From: a virus
Direction: 5' to 3' (one strand)
Length of the DNA stretch: 24,425 nucleotides
Virus record (IMG/VR): IMGVR_UViG_3300020185_000254
Coordinates: 1-24,425 of that record
This document shows, piece by piece, positions 4,122 through 22,030 of the stretch. Below the pieces are notes generated by a model. The model was not told where the DNA came from and did no database searches. It saw only the letters and a program-made list of their open reading frames with translations. Position 1 is the stretch's first letter. The number at the start of each line of letters is the position of its first letter. The position numbers were made by a program, and so were the translations under genes.

Positions 4122-5879
4122 GTGGAGTTCGCTACCGACAAGGACAACAACCGCTTTCGATGGGATGGTAACGACTGGGTTAAAGCCGAGTTTGCCTATG
4201 ACCAAAACAACAATGAGTTTGCTTGGGATGGCGCCGATTGGGCGCAGGTAAATACTGAGGCTCAAGACTTTGCTGACGAGAAGTATGGGCAGCAACAGCC
4301 CTCAGCCCCTTTGGATGGTCAAGAGCAAAATCGGTTTGGTGATTTCGTAGATCAGACCCAAGCAGCATTCGCAGAAAGCTTCGGTGCTGATGCAGCTGCT
4401 GCCCGAATCTTGACTGGCAGTGAAACTGCGGGTGCTATTGAAGACTCCCTTTACGAGTATGGTGAAGAGCAAAGGTCGACTTTAAGCTCTAACGCCAGAG
4501 AAGCTCAGGGCAAGACATGGCTCAGCGAAAACGAGGGCGAGACCTTCGGTGATGCATGGGGCGATGTTGATAGCTGGATTTCACTTGGAGCGTCCGGCGC
4601 AGGATCTCTAGGCTCGTTGATCGCTGGTGGTGGCGTAATTAAAGCAGCTGCCAGTATTGGTCTTCGTGGCCTTGGTAAGACCATCGTTAAAAACAGCGCG
4701 ACAGACAAGCGCGTCAACATGGGTATCTACGGAACACTCGAGGCAGGAATGGTCGGTGGTTCCGCAGGCCGTGCTGTTGAGGAAGAAATCCTCCGCATGC
4801 CTAATGAAATTCTCGTGGAATCCGAAGGATTTCAGGATGTATTCCAAGAGCTGATCGAAGAAGGCTATTCAGAGTCAGAGGCGGCAGACCAAGGTAAAAA
4901 GATATTCGCAAGAAGCACTGCTCAGATGGCAGTTGTCGGAGGCGGAGCAGCAGGTTTAGTTCTTGGCACAGTAGCTGGTAAGTATCTTGATGATGCGATC
5001 TCTGGGCGTATGGCTGGAGGAATGGCCGGGCTTCCTAAGAACGTAGCACTACAGACCGGAGTTCAAGGGGGTACTGAAGCAGCCCAAGGCGGCAGTCAGA
5101 AGTTTGTAGAAAACTTCGGTGTTCAGCAGGCTGACTCAAGCCAAGAACTTTCAGAAGGTGTAGCCGAAGCTGCGGTAGCAGAGGGTCTTGCTGGCGGAAT
5201 GATGGGCGCACCTGTGGGTGCAATTGGATCTCTTAGTTCACCGGTCGATTTGACTCAGACTCCTGACACGGATCCATTCTCGGATGTCGAGATTCCTGAT
5301 GTTGGGCTAGTGGTAGATGAATTCGGCAACCCAGTGGAGCCAGAGGGTTTGCTACCTGCGCCAGAAGTAGAGCCCGAACAGGTAGAACCAGACTTCGTTG
5401 TCACGCCTAGTGGCATGGCAGCAGAGAGCCAAGCGGATATTGACCAAGGTCAAGAGCGCATGAGAGCAGAGGCCGAGTCAGAAGTGCCTCTCATTGAGAC
5501 AACTTATCAGCCAGATCCTGACATGGTGGTTAACAGTCAGGGCGAGGCAATGACGCCTGACCAGCAGACTCAGGTCGACCTTGGCTTTAGGCCTAACCAG
5601 CTGGCTATTGAAAACAAGAACGTAATCTACGGCGAGGGACCAGTACGTGATCCCGCACGCAATGATGCTCTCGAGGAAGAGTTTCCTCAAGGATACAACG
5701 TCGACACCTATGAAGGTGATGCTGAGTTCAAGGCGCTGAAAGACATCAACATCAAGCAGCAGTTCCAAATTGAGGACTCCGGCGAGGTAGTTGAGGTCAG
5801 TGAGAGGGCGGATCGATTGTTTAGTAAAATCGACAAGCGCAGAGGTGTACTGACCAAACTTCTGGAGTGCGTAGGCTAA
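4122..5879 (+). CDS. large internal virion / ejection protein with WDGxDW repeats and glycine-rich hydrophobic segments
   Basis: A 585-residue protein starting with GTG six bases after the previous stop; no ATG fits because the first repeat begins at residue 2. Residues 2-22 and 23-43 are tandem 21-residue repeats, each with W-D-G-x-D-W (13-19 and 34-40). Hydrophobic Gly/Ala segments lie near 153-181, 268-287 and 352-372 and could be membrane-inserting helices. A GVQGGTEAAQGGSQ motif near 312-325 resembles a helix common in large phage injection proteins. Residues 380-500 are acidic and Pro-rich. The protein ends with LFSKIDKRR, similar to the LFSR sites in the 2105-residue protein. This suggests it acts with that protein in a DNA-ejection channel, as gp15 and gp16 do in T7 (inference). 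Its TAA overlaps the next ATG. Confidence 0.55.
   Translation: MEFATDKDNNRFRWDGNDWVKAEFAYDQNNNEFAWDGADWAQVNTEAQDFADEKYGQQQPSAPLDGQEQNRFGDFVDQTQAAFAESFGADAAAARILTGSETAGAIEDSLYEYGEEQRSTLSSNAREAQGKTWLSENEGETFGDAWGDVDSWISLGASGAGSLGSLIAGGGVIKAAASIGLRGLGKTIVKNSATDKRVNMGIYGTLEAGMVGGSAGRAVEEEILRMPNEILVESEGFQDVFQELIEEGYSESEAADQGKKIFARSTAQMAVVGGGAAGLVLGTVAGKYLDDAISGRMAGGMAGLPKNVALQTGVQGGTEAAQGGSQKFVENFGVQQADSSQELSEGVAEAAVAEGLAGGMMGAPVGAIGSLSSPVDLTQTPDTDPFSDVEIPDVGLVVDEFGNPVEPEGLLPAPEVEPEQVEPDFVVTPSGMAAESQADIDQGQERMRAEAESEVPLIETTYQPDPDMVVNSQGEAMTPDQQTQVDLGFRPNQLAIENKNVIYGEGPVRDPARNDALEEEFPQGYNVDTYEGDAEFKALKDINIKQQFQIEDSGEVVEVSERADRLFSKIDKRRGVLTKLLECVG
4125..4250 (+). repeat. two tandem 63-base repeats encoding WDGxDW units
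   Basis: Bases 4125-4187 and 4188-4250 encode aligned 21-residue units sharing F-A-x-D-x-x-N-N-x-F-x-W-D-G-x-D-W. The protein similarity is clear while the DNA has diverged. Confidence 0.7.
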
Positions 5880-12243: not shown

Positions 12244-12466
12244 ACATTTTGGCGCTCGTCATTTCAGAGCAAACACCTTTAAAACAATTACCCACTTTCG
12301 GGTCGAGGTCGAGCTACGCGACAAGACCGGCGGCACTCGCAAGAAGTGGGTTGAGTTCGAGGCTGAACGCTACAACGAGGAGATGCAACTTCTCTATGAG
12401 CAGGCTCGGAGAGATGAAGAAGAGATTATTGCTGTGATTGTTACAGCCATGGAGATCATACAGTGA
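12233..12466 (+). CDS. small conserved phage structural-region protein
   Basis: A 77-residue protein beginning MALKHFGARHFRANTF, a start that recurs in short phage proteins encoded directly after the preceding family. The rest is charged and helical (RDEEEIIAVIVTAMEIIQ at the end). Its ATG lies inside the end of the previous gene and its TGA overlaps the GTG of the giant gene (GTGA). Role unknown; position suggests a virion or assembly factor made in fixed ratio with its neighbours. Confidence 0.65.
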   Translation: MALKHFGARHFRANTFKTITHFRVEVELRDKTGGTRKKWVEFEAERYNEEMQLLYEQARRDEEEIIAVIVTAMEIIQ

Positions 12467-15400
12467 GTTTAACTGCTTGTATTAAGAAGGCCGCTAAAGC
12501 TATTAGTCCACAGGACGGTGCATATCTAACTCAGGTGCGTGCCGAGTTAATGCAGGAAGGCATGACCGCGATAGAAGCGGATCGTGCAGCTGTCCAGACA
12601 TTGATGGACGGCACCATGCAGGAACTTCAAGAGCTATCTCGTATGGTTGAGGAGCAAGGTGGAAAGCCTCTTTATGAAGAGATGACGCAGGCGGCACTGA
12701 GCAGAGTCACAGACCGCACGCCAGAGCTTCAGGAAGCCGCACAAGGGGTCACTGAAGGAACGGTAAATCAAGAGCAATACGCTGAGACGGTCGATCGATT
12801 CAAGCCCGTACAGGCCTATGAGAGCGTTCCTGAGCCAGAGGCTGATGAGGCAGCAGTAGCCGCACTCACAGAAGACAAGCGAGAGCGTTTTGGTGCGGCC
12901 AGAGAAGTAGAAGACGGCACCCCAGTAGCAGTGAGATTAGACATCCCAGCATACCGTGACAACGGCACATGGGTTGTATCGATACACGAGCAGAAAGAAG
13001 GTCAGGGCCAGAGCTCATTTCAAGCTGGTAAGTCAATTGGCTATGACAGCACGGCAGTCATCGATAATGTTGAATTCGGTATGCCTCAGAAAGGCGCACT
13101 GAATATCGCCAAGGGTAAGCCCAAAGGGACTATCGCAACGATGAAAGGGACATGGAGAAATGTTCCTGCGGCTGCAGCCAAAGAAATGGCAGATGCTGCG
13201 ATGGCTAGTGGCGATTATGTGCAGGTCGGAATGGACCCAGAGCGGCACAGTTTCTTCTATGACCGTGGTGATCACCGTGTGCCTGTGTTGAGCGCAGATG
13301 AAGTCATTCAGGTAGGCCCATTAGTTCTGGCTAAGAATCCCACCTACGGCAAGAAAGAAGATTTCCTATTTAGTCGGACTGGTAAGCCTGCCCTTGACCC
13401 GGTGCAGCTCAATGCGGTCGTCGAGAGGATCACCCCCGGGCGGAACATAGATAATCCCGAGTCCCCGGTTGTCGTCGTCGACACCTTTAACGATCTTCCG
13501 CAGGCGATCAAAGATGTAGCGATCGCACAAGGTGCGCAGCGTGCTGATGGTACGTCTGAAGTTGATGGCGCTTTTCATAATGGGAAAGTGTATCTCGTGC
13601 GCGAAGAGATCGCGAGCGAAGAACAGGCTGAAACTGTACTACTGCACGAAACTACGCACGGCGGCATGATGGAAATGCTGCGCGATCAAGGTATCAAGCA
13701 GGCAGCAAACGAATTATTCGTAGCCATGGGTGGTTCCAAAGGCTTCAACAAGATCGCCGCAGAGATGGGCATCGAGGAAAAGCTCAAGCCATACCGCGAA
13801 GGATCAGAAGGCATGACCCAAGAGGATCGTCAGTTCCTTATGGTGTCAGAGATGCTCGCCTACATCGGCGAGAAAGGATCTAAGGGGCTCAAGCTTAAAG
13901 CTCAGGAGCTCATCGGTCGCATCAAACAGTGGCTACGTGATCGTGGGTTCGCGACTCTGGCTGAAAAGGATGCGACTGACATTGCCTATATGGCACGCAA
14001 GTCACGAGAGATCGGTCTAGGACAAGGCCCAGCCACACTGTTCTCGAGAAAGAGAGAGAAGCAGCTGGGTGAATACTCTGCCCGTCAAGATGCTAATGGC
14101 GGACTGTTTGTCAGTGGTGACGTTGAGAGCATTCGATCCAAGCTCCCCGATGGATTGCGCGGTCGACCTGTCGAAGGCGGTCTGCAGTTCACGCCAAACA
14201 ACGCCCCCAGAGTTGAGGCTGCACTGAGCGGTGAAAGATTCTCTGGCAGGTCGGGTGAAGTTACAAAGAACGAGATGAAGAACGGCAGGTACGTCGGAGC
14301 TCCACCTCAGTACAACACGCCAGCCAAACTCCCGGCATTCAGAAAGCGATTCAAGATGCTGGCTGATGAAGGCACCCGGGGACGTTTCTGGTACGAGAAC
14401 TCAGGTGAAGCCATCCTGCAGATGACCGGCGGTAACGTCGAAGAGGCCAAGAAGTTTGTAGCCTTGCTCGCCATCTTCTCACCCCAAGCCAAGGTGGACG
14501 CTAACTCTACCTTCGCGCTGCGAGCATGGGCCCAGTATCAGGCCGGGAAGCCCATCGAAGTTAAGCAAGACAACATGAACCAGAAGGCTACCGAGCTTCT
14601 CTATGAGAACAAGCCTTGGAATGGGGAGAAGACTAGTAACTTCTTCCAGAATCTTTTGCGAGAGATCGAGCCCAGTACCGAAGGTAAGCAAGGCGCAACC
14701 ATCGATCTATGGATGATGCGTGCTGGAGGCTTCAAGACAGACGCGCCAAACGGATCGCAGTATGCATTCCTCGAGAACGAGACTAACCGACTGGCACAGG
14801 AATTAGGCTGGGAGCCTCAGCAGGTGCAGGCTGCAATCTGGGTAGCAATGAAAGCCCGGATGGAAAACAAAGGCGTTAAGCAGCGCACTGAAGCAAGGTC
14901 TGAGAAAGACGGCTACCTTCACTACACCTACGAGCCTAAGAAGACGCGGCATGTAACTTCGCCTGATGAGCATATGCAGAATTGGATCGACGAGGCGATG
15001 AAGCACACGCCTACTGAGGCGGATACTAGTGCTGCCAAGTTCGATTACGGGGATGGCGTGCGTCGTCACCTTGGACAGATCTCATGGGAGGCGACTCCTT
15101 CTACGAAGATCGACGTTCTACCGGGCATCCATGACGCAAGCTACGAAGACAAGCTCGACTTCCAGTATGCCGTACAGAACGTGCTCTACGATGAGAACGG
15201 CACGGATAAGCTTGCCATGCAGCTGGGGCTGCTTGTAAATACCAATGACACCGTGGTCCCCGGCTACTGGGAAGGCATCAGTAATCCATCGAACCAGACC
15301 GAAGTAGCTATGGTTCCTGCTAAAGGCAGTGTTACGGGTACTGATCAAGCCCAGAAAGACAATCTGGATGTCTACGCTGCAGCAATAGGTCTCATGCTCA

Positions 15401-18400
15401 ATCAAGATGGTGTCGGATATCACCGCCCGTTTTACAAGGCAGCTAAGAAAGACAGTCACGGGATTGAGCTTGATGTTGGCGGACCACTTACTGGCGATCA
15501 GGTTACCGCTCTAGGCAAGGGCATTGAGGCGGTCTTCGGAGATCTCGCTGGCGCTATCGGTATTATTAGTACGCCAAATGGTGTGCGTTTGGTAGATTTT
15601 AGTGAGATGGGCTATAAAAAGTTCGGTCCTCTCATCCAGCAAGTGGTAGAATCAGAGACAGATTTGACGGCTGAGTTAGTACACTTTGCGTTTGACGGTG
15701 ACTTAGTCGAGAACAATTGGGAGGATAGTGCCGATGGGCAAGATTACATCAACAAGATTCGCGACAAAGGACGATCCGATATACTCGGGTTCATCGCAGC
15801 TGAGTTTTCACAACCGCTCCAAGAAGTCTTCAACCGATACTCAGAAGAGTTCGGATGGGGCGAGCCCGGAGATGTCCAAGAAAGACTCGAGCAAGCCAGC
15901 AACGAAGCAGGATATGTAACCCCTCTCTTCTCTCGCAGGCGTGAATCCACATTCACAGTACCTGAAGAGAAATTCGCGGATAGGTTTATCCGCAACCTAC
16001 AAGATAAATTCCTACAAGTTCAGCGCGTTCAGCGAGCAATCGAAAAAGCCACGGGCCGCAAGCTAGAGAAAGACTCTGACCCTTATCTGGTAGAGCAGTT
16101 CTTCACTGGCAAAGCTGAGGAAGATCTCGCCGCGGCAGAGCGCAAATTCATTCAGCCAATGATGGACAAGCTCGGTCAGTACGGCCTGAACATGAATGAG
16201 TTGGATCTATTCCTGATGGCTCGTCATGCGCCCGAGCGTAACGCAACCATTGCAGAGCGCAGAACACCCAAGGCTACAGATCAGGAGCCTAATCCAGAAT
16301 CTGAAATGCCGGACGGCGGTTCAGGAATGACCAATCAGCAGGCAGCTGACTGGATGGCGACGTTTGATCGCGAAGGAAAGTTGCAGCAGCTCGAAGAGGT
16401 GGCTAAGTACATCGACATGATGGTGGTTGAGCAACGTCGCATCATGACAGATCTTGATTTGATCAATGAGGCTCAGGCGTACCAGCTCGAAAACAACTGG
16501 CAGTACTACGTTCCACTCAAGGGCTTCGCTGAAGACTCTGAGTCCGATAACTCTACGCTGCACCAAAAGCGCGGCAAGGGTTTTGATATCCGGGGCAAGG
16601 AATACAAGTCTGCGACGGGCCGTAACAGTATGCCGGAAAGTCCTACAGCCGTGCTGCTAGCAGACCTCACTGAGAAGATCATACGATCCAGAAAGAATGA
16701 GGTAGGTCAGGCCTTCCTCAAGATGGTTCAAGACAATCCCAACCCGGACATCTACGAGATTCTGGAGCCGGGGGACTTGCCCAAAGGTTATGACGGCACG
16801 CTTGATAAAGATGGCAAGGCGAAGATGTCTGCTATCAACCCGGCTATGGACCCCTCAGTATTAGCCGTAAAGCAAAAAGGCGGCGAGACTAAGTACATTA
16901 AGATTCACGACAAGCTGCTTGCATCTGCTATGAAGAACATGGGGCCGCAAGAGATGGGCACGGTAACCGGCTTAGTCAATACAGCTACCCGGTTCCTCTC
17001 TGCAGCTAACACTTCTTTCTCCCCCGAGTTCCCACCCGTTAACTTTGTTCGAGATATCACCACGGCAATCATGAGTGTCTTGGCTGAGACCGATTTGAAG
17101 GACGGCAAGATTAAGGACATGGAAGGCGTTGCCGCGAAGATGGCTAAGGGTGCTTTGTTCCGAGTTAGAGATATCAACAACTACTATGAAAGCGTCAAGG
17201 CTGATCCCAATTACAAGCCCGAAGGTATTGAGGCAGACTTTGCTGAGTTCCTAGAGATGGGTGCTAAGACTGGATACTTTGACAGCAAGGATATCAACCA
17301 GCTCAAGGGCGACCTCGAGAGCATGCTCACCATGGCAGGCAACACCAACAAGGGTGCCTTCCTAAGAGCTAAGAAGAAAGTGTTCGATAAGGTCGAGCAA
17401 TGGAATACCGCGGTAGAGAATGGTGTTCGTTTGTCTGCGTATATCCATGCCCGGGATGCTGTATACCAAGCATCGATTGAGTCAGGTGTCGCGCCTGAGA
17501 AGGCAATGAAGGATGCCAAGCTAACAGCTGCTGACTTAGCCAAGAACCTAACCGTTAACTTCAACCGTAAGGGTGAGTATGGTCAGGCCATAAACGCTTG
17601 GTACATGTTTGCCAACGCCAGTATTCAAGGCAGCTTCAACTTGCTGCGTGCTGTATCTCCACTACGACGCGATGCCGAAGGCGACTTCAAGCTAGATCCC
17701 AAGATGAACACGGCCCAGAAGGTAGCCGCGGGAATGGTGGGCACTGGCTACTTCTTTGCCGCGATGAATCGTGAGCACGGCGGTGAGGATGAGGATGGCG
17801 TACCGTACATCGACAAGATCTCTCGTCACGTTAGAGAGCGGAACCTTATCTTGCTCGACAGTGTGTGGGGCGGTGACGGCGAGAAGTACACAGCTTTGCC
17901 TCTGCCATACGGCTTCAATATATTCTTCAATCTCGGCGACACGCTGGAAGCTGGCAAAAACTCAACGTACTTACCAAGACGACAGTCACTGGTAGGCCAG
18001 ATGGTCATCGGGTCACTGAACTCATTCAGTCCGTTTGGTGTTCCTGCAGGCGAAGATGCCCTTACCGGAACAGCTCTAACCCTCACGCCATCAGTGTTGA
18101 AGCCAATCGCTGAGATTGCTGCGAACCAAAGCGAGTTCAATGGTGGTCCGATCTACCCAGAGCAACGTGGCTATGGCGCTCAGCCGGTCGAGGCTTATCA
18201 GTCATTCCGCTCCACCAAAGAAGTGTACAAGAACCTTTCCATGTTCATGAACGACTTCACTGGCGGCAGTAAGTATGAAGAGGGTGGTATCAGTATCGCC
18301 CCTGACAAGATCGAACACGTCGTTGAATACGCGATGGGTGGTATGTATCGAACCGGGTCAAGGCTTCTCGAGACTGTCGATGCGCTTGGAGATGGCCGAC

Positions 18401-18780
18401 AGCTGTCAACCAACAACATTCCATACCTCAGATCATTTGCCGGAGAGAACAGATTCTACGAAGACCAGTCTCTTTTTTATGACCGATTAGAAGACATAGA
18501 TAATGCGGTTGCGGCCATCAAGGATAGAGAAAGCACTCCGGCAGAGAGGGGTGCGGCTCGAAAGGAAAACATGTGGAAGATAAAGCTTGCTAACAGGGCC
18601 AAGGGCGCTAGGAAGCGAATGAAGTTCCACCGTGATGCAAGGGATCGAATTGTCGCCAATACAGAGATCACAGACGCGGAGAAGGATGTTCGAATTAAGG
18701 AAGCGGAGGCCAAGATGAAGGCGGCTACGGATGAGTTTAATAAGGCTTACAACGAAGCCGAAAACAAAGCTGAGGGATAG
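12463..18780 (+). CDS. giant polyvalent internal virion / ejection protein with HExxH peptidase module
   Basis: A 2105-residue protein from a GTG that overlaps the previous stop. Four blocks are separated by LFSR at 302-305, 526-529 and 1155-1158. Block 1 has a domain at 155-300 (RLDIPAYRDNGTWVVSIHEQ; FFYDR; ADEVIQVGPLVLAKNP) like domains of phage polyvalent proteins; LPD3- or ADP-ribosyltransferase-like labels are possible but unproven. Block 2 has H395-E-T-T-H399 and a candidate third zinc ligand at E463 (SEMLAY). Block 3 (530-1155) contains RFWYENSGEAI near 640 and GATIDLWMMRAGG near 746; function unknown. Block 4 resembles LPD38-type C-terminal regions of polyvalent proteins (RFIRNLQDKFLQVQRVQRAI; VNFNRKGEYGQAINAWYMF near 1695) and ends in charged coiled coil. 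I infer a gp16-like protein ejected into the host, with enzymatic cargo. Confidence 0.75.
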   Translation: MSLTACIKKAAKAISPQDGAYLTQVRAELMQEGMTAIEADRAAVQTLMDGTMQELQELSRMVEEQGGKPLYEEMTQAALSRVTDRTPELQEAAQGVTEGTVNQEQYAETVDRFKPVQAYESVPEPEADEAAVAALTEDKRERFGAAREVEDGTPVAVRLDIPAYRDNGTWVVSIHEQKEGQGQSSFQAGKSIGYDSTAVIDNVEFGMPQKGALNIAKGKPKGTIATMKGTWRNVPAAAAKEMADAAMASGDYVQVGMDPERHSFFYDRGDHRVPVLSADEVIQVGPLVLAKNPTYGKKEDFLFSRTGKPALDPVQLNAVVERITPGRNIDNPESPVVVVDTFNDLPQAIKDVAIAQGAQRADGTSEVDGAFHNGKVYLVREEIASEEQAETVLLHETTHGGMMEMLRDQGIKQAANELFVAMGGSKGFNKIAAEMGIEEKLKPYREGSEGMTQEDRQFLMVSEMLAYIGEKGSKGLKLKAQELIGRIKQWLRDRGFATLAEKDATDIAYMARKSREIGLGQGPATLFSRKREKQLGEYSARQDANGGLFVSGDVESIRSKLPDGLRGRPVEGGLQFTPNNAPRVEAALSGERFSGRSGEVTKNEMKNGRYVGAPPQYNTPAKLPAFRKRFKMLADEGTRGRFWYENSGEAILQMTGGNVEEAKKFVALLAIFSPQAKVDANSTFALRAWAQYQAGKPIEVKQDNMNQKATELLYENKPWNGEKTSNFFQNLLREIEPSTEGKQGATIDLWMMRAGGFKTDAPNGSQYAFLENETNRLAQELGWEPQQVQAAIWVAMKARMENKGVKQRTEARSEKDGYLHYTYEPKKTRHVTSPDEHMQNWIDEAMKHTPTEADTSAAKFDYGDGVRRHLGQISWEATPSTKIDVLPGIHDASYEDKLDFQYAVQNVLYDENGTDKLAMQLGLLVNTNDTVVPGYWEGISNPSNQTEVAMVPAKGSVTGTDQAQKDNLDVYAAAIGLMLNQDGVGYHRPFYKAAKKDSHGIELDVGGPLTGDQVTALGKGIEAVFGDLAGAIGIISTPNGVRLVDFSEMGYKKFGPLIQQVVESETDLTAELVHFAFDGDLVENNWEDSADGQDYINKIRDKGRSDILGFIAAEFSQPLQEVFNRYSEEFGWGEPGDVQERLEQASNEAGYVTPLFSRRRESTFTVPEEKFADRFIRNLQDKFLQVQRVQRAIEKATGRKLEKDSDPYLVEQFFTGKAEEDLAAAERKFIQPMMDKLGQYGLNMNELDLFLMARHAPERNATIAERRTPKATDQEPNPESEMPDGGSGMTNQQAADWMATFDREGKLQQLEEVAKYIDMMVVEQRRIMTDLDLINEAQAYQLENNWQYYVPLKGFAEDSESDNSTLHQKRGKGFDIRGKEYKSATGRNSMPESPTAVLLADLTEKIIRSRKNEVGQAFLKMVQDNPNPDIYEILEPGDLPKGYDGTLDKDGKAKMSAINPAMDPSVLAVKQKGGETKYIKIHDKLLASAMKNMGPQEMGTVTGLVNTATRFLSAANTSFSPEFPPVNFVRDITTAIMSVLAETDLKDGKIKDMEGVAAKMAKGALFRVRDINNYYESVKADPNYKPEGIEADFAEFLEMGAKTGYFDSKDINQLKGDLESMLTMAGNTNKGAFLRAKKKVFDKVEQWNTAVENGVRLSAYIHARDAVYQASIESGVAPEKAMKDAKLTAADLAKNLTVNFNRKGEYGQAINAWYMFANASIQGSFNLLRAVSPLRRDAEGDFKLDPKMNTAQKVAAGMVGTGYFFAAMNREHGGEDEDGVPYIDKISRHVRERNLILLDSVWGGDGEKYTALPLPYGFNIFFNLGDTLEAGKNSTYLPRRQSLVGQMVIGSLNSFSPFGVPAGEDALTGTALTLTPSVLKPIAEIAANQSEFNGGPIYPEQRGYGAQPVEAYQSFRSTKEVYKNLSMFMNDFTGGSKYEEGGISIAPDKIEHVVEYAMGGMYRTGSRLLETVDALGDGRQLSTNNIPYLRSFAGENRFYEDQSLFYDRLEDIDNAVAAIKDRESTPAERGAARKENMWKIKLANRAKGARKRMKFHRDARDRIVANTEITDAEKDVRIKEAEAKMKAATDEFNKAYNEAENKAEG

Positions 18781-18781
18781 C

Positions 18782-19954
18782 ATGGAGCACCTATTAGAGT
18801 TTGCCACGGAACGGCAAAAGGAAGTAATAAAACTAGTCATAGAGATGGGCAGTGCTCGACGTGCTGCTGAAGCTTTAGGAATACACCACAGCACTGTGGG
18901 TGAGATGATAAATCGCGCCAAGTCCAAGGCAGCAATAAGCGGTGTTGCGCCAGAAGCGGGTATGACCCATCAAACTGCGGAAGGCTTTGCTACTAAGCGC
19001 GTCAGCACCATGTACAAAGATGACGGTTCGGTAGGCCTCCAGTGGCATATACAAGAGCAAGATAAAAAGCAGCAGATGGAAGCGATCACTCGTTTTTGTG
19101 AGTCGTTTAAGTGGAAGCCAGCGCCCAAGATTAAGCACAAGGGTGCTGAGAAAGCTGAGCTATGCACGCTGTACACGCTTACCGATTATCACATGGGTAT
19201 GTATGCCTTCCGAGATATCGGCGGTGATGATTGGGACAGCAAGATAGCGACCAACACAGCCATTACAGCATTGGCTCAGATGATTGATGGGTCACCGGAC
19301 TCAGCCATAGGGATACTGAATCTCCAAGGCGATTTTTTGCATTACGACTCCCTAGAACCAGTAACTCCGACTTCCGGCCATATCGTCGATTCTGATTCAA
19401 GAATGGAAGCACTGGTCGACGTTTCAGTGCACCTGATCATGCACTGCATAGAGATGCTGTTAGAGAAGCACAAGGATCTGAAGATCTTTATCTGCGAGGG
19501 TAACCACGATATCGTCTCGAGCCTATTCCTGCGCAAGTTGGTCAAGCATGTCTACATGGATAACAAGCGTGTCAGTGTGGACGACACGTCATTCCCGTAC
19601 TATGCGTATCAGCACGGCAGGGTCATGCTGGGATTCCACCACGGTCACAAGAAGAAAAACACCGCCTTACCAGCGCTGTTCGCCAGTGAGCCAAGGTATC
19701 GTCAGATGTGGGGCTCTTGTACTGCTGGCACGTATATCCACACAGGTCACTATCACCATCAAGAAAAAGATGTCCACGAAGATGGCGGTGCCGTTGTGGA
19801 GCGTCATCCAACACTCGCTGCACGCGACAGCCATGCCGCTCGCGGTGGCTACACGAGCCTAAGAGCAGCGCACGCTATAACGTACCACAAGGAAAAGGGT
19901 GAGGTGTCTAGGTGTACGGTTACACCCAGCGCATCCCAAGAAGCCGCAGCCTAA
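18782..19954 (+). CDS. HTH + calcineurin-like metallophosphoesterase
   Basis: A 390-residue protein from the ATG at 18782, preceded by GAGGG. An in-frame ATG at 18731 lies inside the previous gene and has no such site. Residues 10-45 form a helix-turn-helix (SARRAAEALGIHHSTVGEMI). The rest carries the full calcineurin-like phosphoesterase motif set: D135-x-H137, G-D184, G-N241-H242-D243, H287-G-H289 and G-H323-x-H325, which bind two metal ions and hydrolyse phosphate esters or DNA/RNA phosphodiesters. The combination of DNA-binding head and phosphoesterase suggests action on DNA. Such genes occur near the virion and packaging genes of several phages, but the substrate is unknown. It is the last rightward gene and overlaps the convergent zinc protein gene by 35 bases. 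Confidence 0.85.
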   Translation: MEHLLEFATERQKEVIKLVIEMGSARRAAEALGIHHSTVGEMINRAKSKAAISGVAPEAGMTHQTAEGFATKRVSTMYKDDGSVGLQWHIQEQDKKQQMEAITRFCESFKWKPAPKIKHKGAEKAELCTLYTLTDYHMGMYAFRDIGGDDWDSKIATNTAITALAQMIDGSPDSAIGILNLQGDFLHYDSLEPVTPTSGHIVDSDSRMEALVDVSVHLIMHCIEMLLEKHKDLKIFICEGNHDIVSSLFLRKLVKHVYMDNKRVSVDDTSFPYYAYQHGRVMLGFHHGHKKKNTALPALFASEPRYRQMWGSCTAGTYIHTGHYHHQEKDVHEDGGAVVERHPTLAARDSHAARGGYTSLRAAHAITYHKEKGEVSRCTVTPSASQEAAA

Positions 19955-20846: not shown

Positions 20847-21830
20847 ATGGCAGGGAGTTTCACTCGACTGGAGAGCGGAAACTGGAGAGCACGGGTTCTC
20901 GTTGATGGAGCTCGTATCACTGGAACATTCCCGACTAAGCGCAGGGCTGAGCAATGGGTTGGGGAGCAGCTCAATAAAAAGCATGCGGTCTACAGCTACA
21001 CTCTTCTTGAAGCAGCTCAGCGGTATGCCGACGAGGTTTCTCCAACCAAGAAGGGAGAACGCTGGGAGGCGATAAGAATTAACGCCTTGACCAGAGACTA
21101 CCCGCGACTTTTTGCTATGAAGCTCAGCAAGATCGAATCCCAGCACATCGAAGAATTTATTAAGGATCGAATGGAGTCGGTCAAGAGTTCGACCGTTAAC
21201 CGGGAGATCAGCGTGATCTCTCACATATTTAAAAAAGCGATCAAGTGGAAGTGGGCAACGGAGTCTCCGACGACGCACGCTGACAGGCCGCGAGATCCAC
21301 CGCCAAGAGAACGACGGATATCCGAAGAAGAGATCGCCTTGATTTGTGCTGTCTTGGGATACTCCGAAGAGGTAACGGTGACCAACAAAAGTCAGATCGT
21401 CGCCATTGCTTTCTTGCTCGCTATCGAGACTGCGATGAGGCAAGGGGAAATCTCCAGTCTGGAGAAGAGAGACGTTGATCTGAATCGTAAAACTATTACG
21501 CTTCGCCCCGAGATCACCAAAACTAATGAGGGTAGGATTGTCCCACTCAGTCCCGAGGCCATTCGTTTGATCAAGAGAGTACCCAAAAGCAAGACCTCTC
21601 AATGGCTCGGATGCTACGCGCCCAGCGTCAGCGCCCTGTTTCTCAAGGCGGTTCGAAAATCTGGAATTGAAAATCTCACCTTTCATGATTCGAGACATGA
21701 GGCCACGACCCGGCTTGCTGGTAAGTTCCACGTCTTGGACCTTGCCAGAATCACCGGGCACAAAGACATCAACAAGCTTTTGATCTATTACAACCGGAGC
21801 GCTGCTGACATGGCTAACGACTTGGTCTAA
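20847..21830 (+). CDS. int: phage tyrosine integrase
   Basis: A 327-residue site-specific recombinase. The start is an ATG preceded by GGAGGG. Residues 1-45 are a small arm-binding-like domain (LESGNWRARVLVDGARITGTF). Residues 50-160 are the core-binding SAM-like helices. The catalytic domain shows R198 (TAMRQGE), H280-x-x-R283-H284 (HDSRHEA), H305 (GHKD) and the nucleophile Y314 (Y315 is adjacent), nine residues after H305 as is usual in this family. It recombines attP with attB, here probably a tRNA-Leu gene, with the attP core 171 bases upstream. All key residues are present, so the enzyme should be active. Its stop overlaps the stop of the convergent xis-like gene. Confidence 0.93.
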   Translation: MAGSFTRLESGNWRARVLVDGARITGTFPTKRRAEQWVGEQLNKKHAVYSYTLLEAAQRYADEVSPTKKGERWEAIRINALTRDYPRLFAMKLSKIESQHIEEFIKDRMESVKSSTVNREISVISHIFKKAIKWKWATESPTTHADRPRDPPPRERRISEEEIALICAVLGYSEEVTVTNKSQIVAIAFLLAIETAMRQGEISSLEKRDVDLNRKTITLRPEITKTNEGRIVPLSPEAIRLIKRVPKSKTSQWLGCYAPSVSALFLKAVRKSGIENLTFHDSRHEATTRLAGKFHVLDLARITGHKDINKLLIYYNRSAADMANDLV

Positions 21831-22030
21831 GCTTTTCGCGTAGCCCATGCGACTACCTCGTTGCGTATCCACCGACGACCAGCAGGAGCGCACTCGGGAA
21901 AATCTGGGCGCTTACTAATTTTATTCATGAAGTAGTGGCGACTGTACCCAAGGTACTGAGAACACTGGGTTGAGCTCCAGAGCTCCTCATGGCTATCTAA
22001 TTCTAGTGTGTGCATTTCAACTTCGCTCAT
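21827..22030 (-). CDS. AlpA/Xis-like excisionase
   Basis: A 67-residue protein with a winged-HTH of the AlpA/MerR-like excisionase kind: WSSTQCSQYLGYSRHYFMNK, then FPECAPAGRRWIRNEVVAW. This is the usual 'choose site, recognition helix, wing, W/R-x-x-EV-x-W' layout. Such proteins bend att DNA and turn integration into excision, or act as activators. AGGGTC lies before the ATG at 22030; a later ATG at 22015 would remove five residues. It is the last gene of the leftward recombination operon and converges on int with overlapping stop codons. Confidence 0.8.
   Translation of the reverse strand: MSEVEMHTLELDSHEELWSSTQCSQYLGYSRHYFMNKISKRPDFPECAPAGRRWIRNEVVAWATRKA

Follow-up and report, generated by a model that had tools for sequence, protein, structure and literature searches.

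An aromatic-serine tag at the module ends of giant phage polyvalent proteins, with lineage-specific spellings and a possible role in cleavage

What marks the module ends of a giant phage protein? The window analyzed here, the whole 24425-base stretch of the IMG/VR virus contig IMGVR_UViG_3300020185_000254, encodes a 2105-residue protein in which the tetrapeptide LFSR occurs at residues 302, 526 and 1155, followed by TGK, KRE and RRE, respectively (Table 1). A sequence-only reading had drawn attention to these three copies, to an HExxH motif between the first two, and to codon differences indicating that the copies are not a recent DNA repeat. Each of these points was borne out in the open reading frame (ORF): the motif is HETTH, and the codons are unlike among the three copies, which rules out a DNA repeat as their origin. 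The pattern is broader than that reading saw. It is an aromatic-serine end-of-module tag with lineage-specific spellings, and cleavage is its best explanation, as yet unproven.

The 2105-residue protein combines several unrelated domains in one polypeptide, each with separate homologues, and belongs to the phage-type polyvalent proteins described by Iyer et al. 2017 (PMC5512222). These domains are a first module (M1), a zincin-like metallopeptidase module (M2), a DUF7178 domain (M3) and a conserved C-terminal module (M4) that contains LPD38. In tblastn comparisons homology to M1 begins at residues 64-148 and ends at residues 291-308, and the phages matched differ from those matched by M4. In M2 the Glu of the HExxH motif and a later Glu (E107 and E174 of the first sequence) are invariant across 45 aligned sequences, as expected of a zincin. 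M4 aligns with giant proteins of E. coli and Vibrio phages at 34-37% identity, with the alignments starting at residue 1154 or 1155, and with those of Ruegeria and Burkholderia phages at 24-32% identity; its phage-restricted LPD38 domain (residues 1784-1988) matches the Pfam profile with E=3e-31 and 109 bits against a cut-off of 27, and the giant phage protein families PHROG 616, 14770 and 10691 cover residues 1151-2100. Relatives of M2, M4 or the ART-like module discussed below were not found by sequence among the solved structures of the PDB. By analogy with the virion protein JC1 gp69, the 2105-residue protein is probably carried in the virion and delivered. The three LFSR copies, proposed earlier to end domain-like blocks, do sit where homology breaks: at the end of M1, past the end of M2, and at the onset of M4.

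Is the repetition meaningful in itself? Composition predicts 0.015 copies of LFSR in the protein, and three copies appeared in 0 of 20000 shuffles. Nevertheless, the motif was chosen after reading, the triple occurrence within one protein is weak evidence, and some tetrapeptide occurs at least three times in 839 of 2000 shuffles (42%) of the same protein. Thus, the window protein alone does not establish the pattern, and we rejected any claim of significance drawn from it alone.

The relatives, mostly metagenomic contigs, comprised 222 loci that yielded 212 giant ORFs and, after the removal of near duplicates, 120; borders were defined as the ends of BLAST blocks between these 120 ORFs, and the tests take dereplicated sequences as independent. 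Motif enrichment at borders, the check suggested by the sequence-only reading, is present: 12 of 16 [LM]FSR sites (75%), the window's own three among them, lie within 25 residues of a homology-block end, against a background of 22%. Similarly, FSR lies near block ends in 40-45% of cases against a background of 22-23%, and at N-starts FSR (0.45) exceeds every permuted control. Two permuted controls, SR[FY] and RS[FY], stay at background near block ends. The tripeptide border test alone is only moderately specific, because [FY]RS and R[FY]S are likewise raised at C-ends (0.41 each). Over the entire length of the 120 relatives FSR is only 2.2-fold enriched and is not among the top-ranked tripeptides; thus the signal is positional, and overall tripeptide enrichment was discarded as the signal.

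What is kept at the borders of the homologues is the aromatic-serine core; the exact LFSR is not conserved. As read from the alignments, the conserved core is h-[FY]-S-x, in which a hydrophobic or basic residue precedes [FY], serine and a variable residue. For example, the M4 border reads YYSR in PhiR5_2, MFSR or MFSK in Vibrio phages and RFSV in BcepIL02, with other forms elsewhere, and [FY]S[RK] is found in the 90-residue stretch around this border in 24 of 76 dereplicated proteins. Named isolates from outside the starting set, the Pseudomonas phages F116 and USP_25 and the Shewanella phage Y11, have at least two FSR at these borders. In the loci examined, the tags are nearly confined to the polyvalent protein.

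The clearest view of the tag comes from the tails of 44 dereplicated peptidase modules. Past this module the linker varies in both length and sequence, and FS is the sole linker column above 50% in the alignment. [FY]S is present in 29 of the 44 tails, whereas shuffled tails contain it in a mean of 10.8 and a maximum of 20; with the window sequence left out the count is 28 of 43. Among all 400 dipeptides FS ranks first after the peptidase module (z 5.9); it lies a median of 26 residues beyond the module (range 15-47). The tag thus sits in the variable linker, beyond the last conserved helix of the module, and the variability around it suggests that it is exposed. Likewise, among 25 distinct M1 tails assessed by reading, about half carry [FY]S and most of the others keep an aromatic residue there; at the same offset after GPLVxAKN the relatives have FSK, FSN, FSS or FSA, or else FQ, FK or FR, and YA also occurs. 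The ART-like modules end in GTFDPxNPDI followed by RFS, LFS, RYS or other tags (for example, DIRFS and DILFSR), and three of seven GNAT-like modules end in RFS or LFS. In three stand-alone ART proteins, the chain stops 6-9 residues past the module and the tag is absent. The tandem ART-like array of a Pseudomonas aeruginosa plasmid protein of about 5000 residues (L353:6268-21270) has no common FS tag at its borders. Sampling of genomes for ART-PolyVal and for ddrB-ParB gave positives in only 2 of 398 genomes each.

How is the tag spelled in different lineages? Viral contigs chosen by a DNA pattern for the ART tail contain the tag types DIRFS, NILFQ, NINYMP or NILFMP, and DITKxGG. A set of 132 dereplicated ORFs was sorted by ART-tail type, and the tags in the remainder of each ORF were compared with their number in shuffles: 53 versus 29.9 for the FS type, 76 versus 16.6 for xGG and 18 versus 1.8 for [FY]M[PA], each of these being enriched in its own class only. 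Repetition of the FQ tag is weak (81 versus 58.4). The FMP class consists of seven ORFs only, probably from one lineage, and its proteins have up to seven YMP or FMP sites, some of them abutting the ART module that follows (YMPAAYHGTPH). In FS-type proteins, two borders of one protein have the same kind of residue after [FY]S (basic, hydrophobic or other) in 0.62 of pairs, against 0.35 when permuted (p=0.001). With one protein per similarity cluster (12 clusters), and with FSxP matches belonging to the M4 start dropped by a filter chosen after seeing the data, the median agreement reaches 0.86, and over 200 permutations the median p is 0 after rounding (p<0.005).

Individual loci illustrate the other spellings. 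The repeated [FY]MP[AS] border tag, in up to seven copies, is seen in L292 (in the plus-strand ORF from base 2), L238, L291, L307 and L265. The proteins of xGG-type loci (L099, L316, L109 and others) are dense in KxGG[KE]V-like repeats, which also occur in smaller proteins adjoining the polyvalent one. In L262, L276, L283, L288 and L310 the ART tails end in NILFQ or VLFQG, which resemble 3C-type protease sites and are weakly repeated within the proteins.

The same giant gene is present at 100% identity on a 35-kb IMG/VR contig. Because the window also encodes an integrase, an exonuclease-like protein, and tail and virion proteins, the element is probably a temperate phage. Upstream, a 585-residue protein (4122-5879, plus strand) matches PHROG 10089 (E=2e-21), PHROG 2206 (E=5e-9) and, weakly, the giant-protein family PHROG 616; it resembles giant proteins of the DarB-like, endolysin-type and virion RNA polymerase kinds in their N-terminal part, and the N-terminal part of the relatives' polyvalent protein may be a separate gene in the window. 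Downstream, the gene at 18731-19954, assigned to the DNA repair exonuclease family PHROG 704, overlaps the last 50 bases of the giant gene at its start (18731-18780, plus strand). Finally, in the region 20847-22030 the plus-strand integrase gene faces a 67-residue ORF on the reverse strand that looks like an excisionase or helix-turn-helix protein, with an overlap at 21827-21830, and this region is the probable lysogeny end of the phage.

Table 1. Giant gene, modules and LFSR copies in the window.
Feature	Position	Strand	Basis or sequence
Gene for the 2105-residue polyvalent protein	12463..18780	+	ORF, GTG start
Module M1, about residues 85-301	12715..13365	+	tblastn to ctYwJ313, CRP-207, CRP-9; alignment
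LFSR copy 1, residues 302-305, end of M1	13366..13377	+	CTATTTAGTCGG
Module M2, zincin-like metallopeptidase, about residues 311-522	13393..14028	+	profile search, alignment of 44 dereplicated relatives
HETTH of M2, residues 395-399	13645-13659	+	HExxH motif
LFSR copy 2, residues 526-529, end of peptidase linker	14038..14049	+	CTGTTCTCGAGA
DUF7178 domain (module M3), residues 635-798	14365..14856	+	Pfam PF23802, E=3e-13
LFSR copy 3, residues 1155-1158, border before C-terminal module	15925..15936	+	CTCTTCTCTCGC
Module M4, conserved C-terminal, contains LPD38 (17812-18426)	15937..18777	+	Pfam, homology to other phages

What would read such a tag? The tag, its position at borders, its recurrence after unrelated module types and its agreement within a protein are direct observations. 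From these we infer that a factor reads the tag, that this factor is a protease, and which protease it might be. Tentatively, and with somewhat less than even confidence, we propose that the LFSR copies are selected end-of-module tags and that each lineage's own spelling is read by one factor, likeliest a protease that separates the modules. The tag would be kept by selection in the otherwise variable linkers between folded modules; each lineage would spell it in its own way and repeat that spelling at several unrelated borders, and one lineage-specific factor would read it at every border. As in a polyprotein, the protease would part the modules, whether inside the head, in the course of ejection or once in the new host cell. 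Similar sites recurring at module borders are a polyprotein-like trait, and short sites that are alike within a protein and different between lineages are what a polyprotein would show, which is why we prefer this reading. More generally, it is conceivable, although we hold it to be less likely than not, that polyvalent phage proteins carry a lineage-specific border code, with spellings such as h[FY]S[RK], h[FY]S[LIVM], [FY]MP, xGG and perhaps LFQ, that a single co-evolving factor, in the simplest case a protease, would read. Such proteins would be phage polyproteins, and incoming modules would acquire the local spelling.

Several points count against separation by a protease. Many relatives are without [FY]S at a given border, and the excess in ART tails is moderate (12 of 31 versus 5.4 expected). 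The tag motif classes were set after seeing the data. We know of no cleavage product for any of these proteins. An FMP tag would place a proline beside the cut, which is unfavourable for most proteases if they cut there. The embedded HExxH peptidase, which the sequence-only reading had offered as a candidate cutter, is not supported: the raw co-occurrence of tag and peptidase (27/15/15/40, odds ratio 4.8) is no longer significant once lineage and length are controlled, since stratifying by length and M4 lineage gives 27 co-occurrences versus 24.7 expected (p=0.14), which gives that peptidase no lineage-independent support as the cutter. Moreover, an HEx2-3H motif is absent from 12 of 58 complete tagged ORFs. 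Zincins often favour a bulky hydrophobic residue just after the cut. A cut before [FY] would therefore suit the embedded peptidase, but nothing in the data points to it in particular; a different protease, of the phage or of the host, would fit equally well, and so would a binding role in packaging or ejection. Tryptic peptides ending at the LFSR sites would be uninformative because trypsin itself cuts after FSR.

The tag might instead be a binding peptide that docks the modules to the inner capsid, the portal, ejection proteins or packaged DNA, somewhat like the cargo-loading peptides that bind inside HK97-fold shells. The RYSLR and RFSLR forms recall encapsulin cargo peptides. That the tags are nearly confined to the polyvalent protein, and that relatives are virion proteins (PMC9144972), both agree with docking, and repetition within a protein together with lineage spelling would suit a co-evolving binding partner no less than a protease. 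Nothing in the analysis demonstrates binding, and repeated internal signals are not needed, since P1 DarB reportedly reaches the head through a localisation signal of its own (PMC9024508); on balance we consider docking unlikely. Alternatively, the tag could be a scar of shuffling, left by modules swapped with a common linker and having no role of its own. This would account for the location of the tags at breaks in homology between proteins and for the recurrence of some neighbouring sequence, for example FMPASEAGAGKGK. We regard a scar as quite unlikely, however: the codons differ and DNA-level homology is absent among the three copies, FS persists while the linkers otherwise vary, the tags come after unrelated folds, and the Pseudomonas plasmid ART arrays shuffle or duplicate without a common FS tag.

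That the aromatic position is the best kept, even where serine is lost (FQ, FK, FR and YA at the M1 end), would be expected of a structural cap, in which the aromatic residue would pack against the module before it and so complete the fold. Different folds would then require the same cap, at 15-47 residues beyond the end of the peptidase module and in a form missing from stand-alone ART proteins, and the agreement within proteins of the residue after FS would go unexplained; a cap is therefore improbable. As for chance, the frequency of tripled tetrapeptides in shuffles and the modest overall enrichment of FSR would make three copies in 2105 residues unsurprising. Border placement and recurrence in homologues largely refute it, and we consider chance highly improbable.

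Since autoprocessing was proposed in 2017, it has been a question whether giant polyvalent proteins are split into working enzymes at all and, if so, how. The border tag pinpoints residues for mutation and termini to look for. If the code is real, it would show what modules must carry to be accepted into the delivered protein of a phage, and it would aid the correct splitting of polyvalent proteins for annotation and expression. No published description of the tag was found in the open-licence literature (LFSR with phage and polyvalent), which is weak evidence of novelty.

Finally, how does the tagged protein compare with known systems? Iyer et al. predicted that the MPTase processes polyvalent proteins into functional units (PMC5512222), and the window protein shares with theirs its giant size, its several modules, LPD38 and a zincin-like MPTase. 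Their prediction named no cleavage site or border motif, and the repeated tag and its lineage spellings add to it. NCBIfam NF032893, tail-700 (PLxRFG), describes a large C-terminal domain of other polyvalent proteins; even with E values up to 1 admitted, the window protein does not match it, and PLxRFG, a different motif, was rejected as a name for LFSR. Head maturation proteases such as P1 Pro and SPN3US gp245 process packaged proteins, and their known sites, between E120 and S121 in the P1 capsid protein (PMC9024508) and after AXE (PMC10052503), respectively, do not match h[FY]S. Like viral polyproteins, the tagged proteins have short sites that recur at module borders, similar in any one virus and dissimilar from lineage to lineage; in the tagged proteins, however, cleavage by a dedicated protease is a proposal made from sequence. 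The C-terminal module is shared, at 24-37% identity, with the DarB-like giant virion proteins of Bcep22-like podoviruses (BcepIL02 gp70, JC1 gp69) and of Stx-type E. coli podoviruses (PhiR5_2), and JC1 gp69 was found in virions with 51 unique peptides (PMC9144972). The upstream modules of these proteins are unlike those of the window protein, and their border tags also differ, with RFSV in BcepIL02 and YYSR in PhiR5_2.

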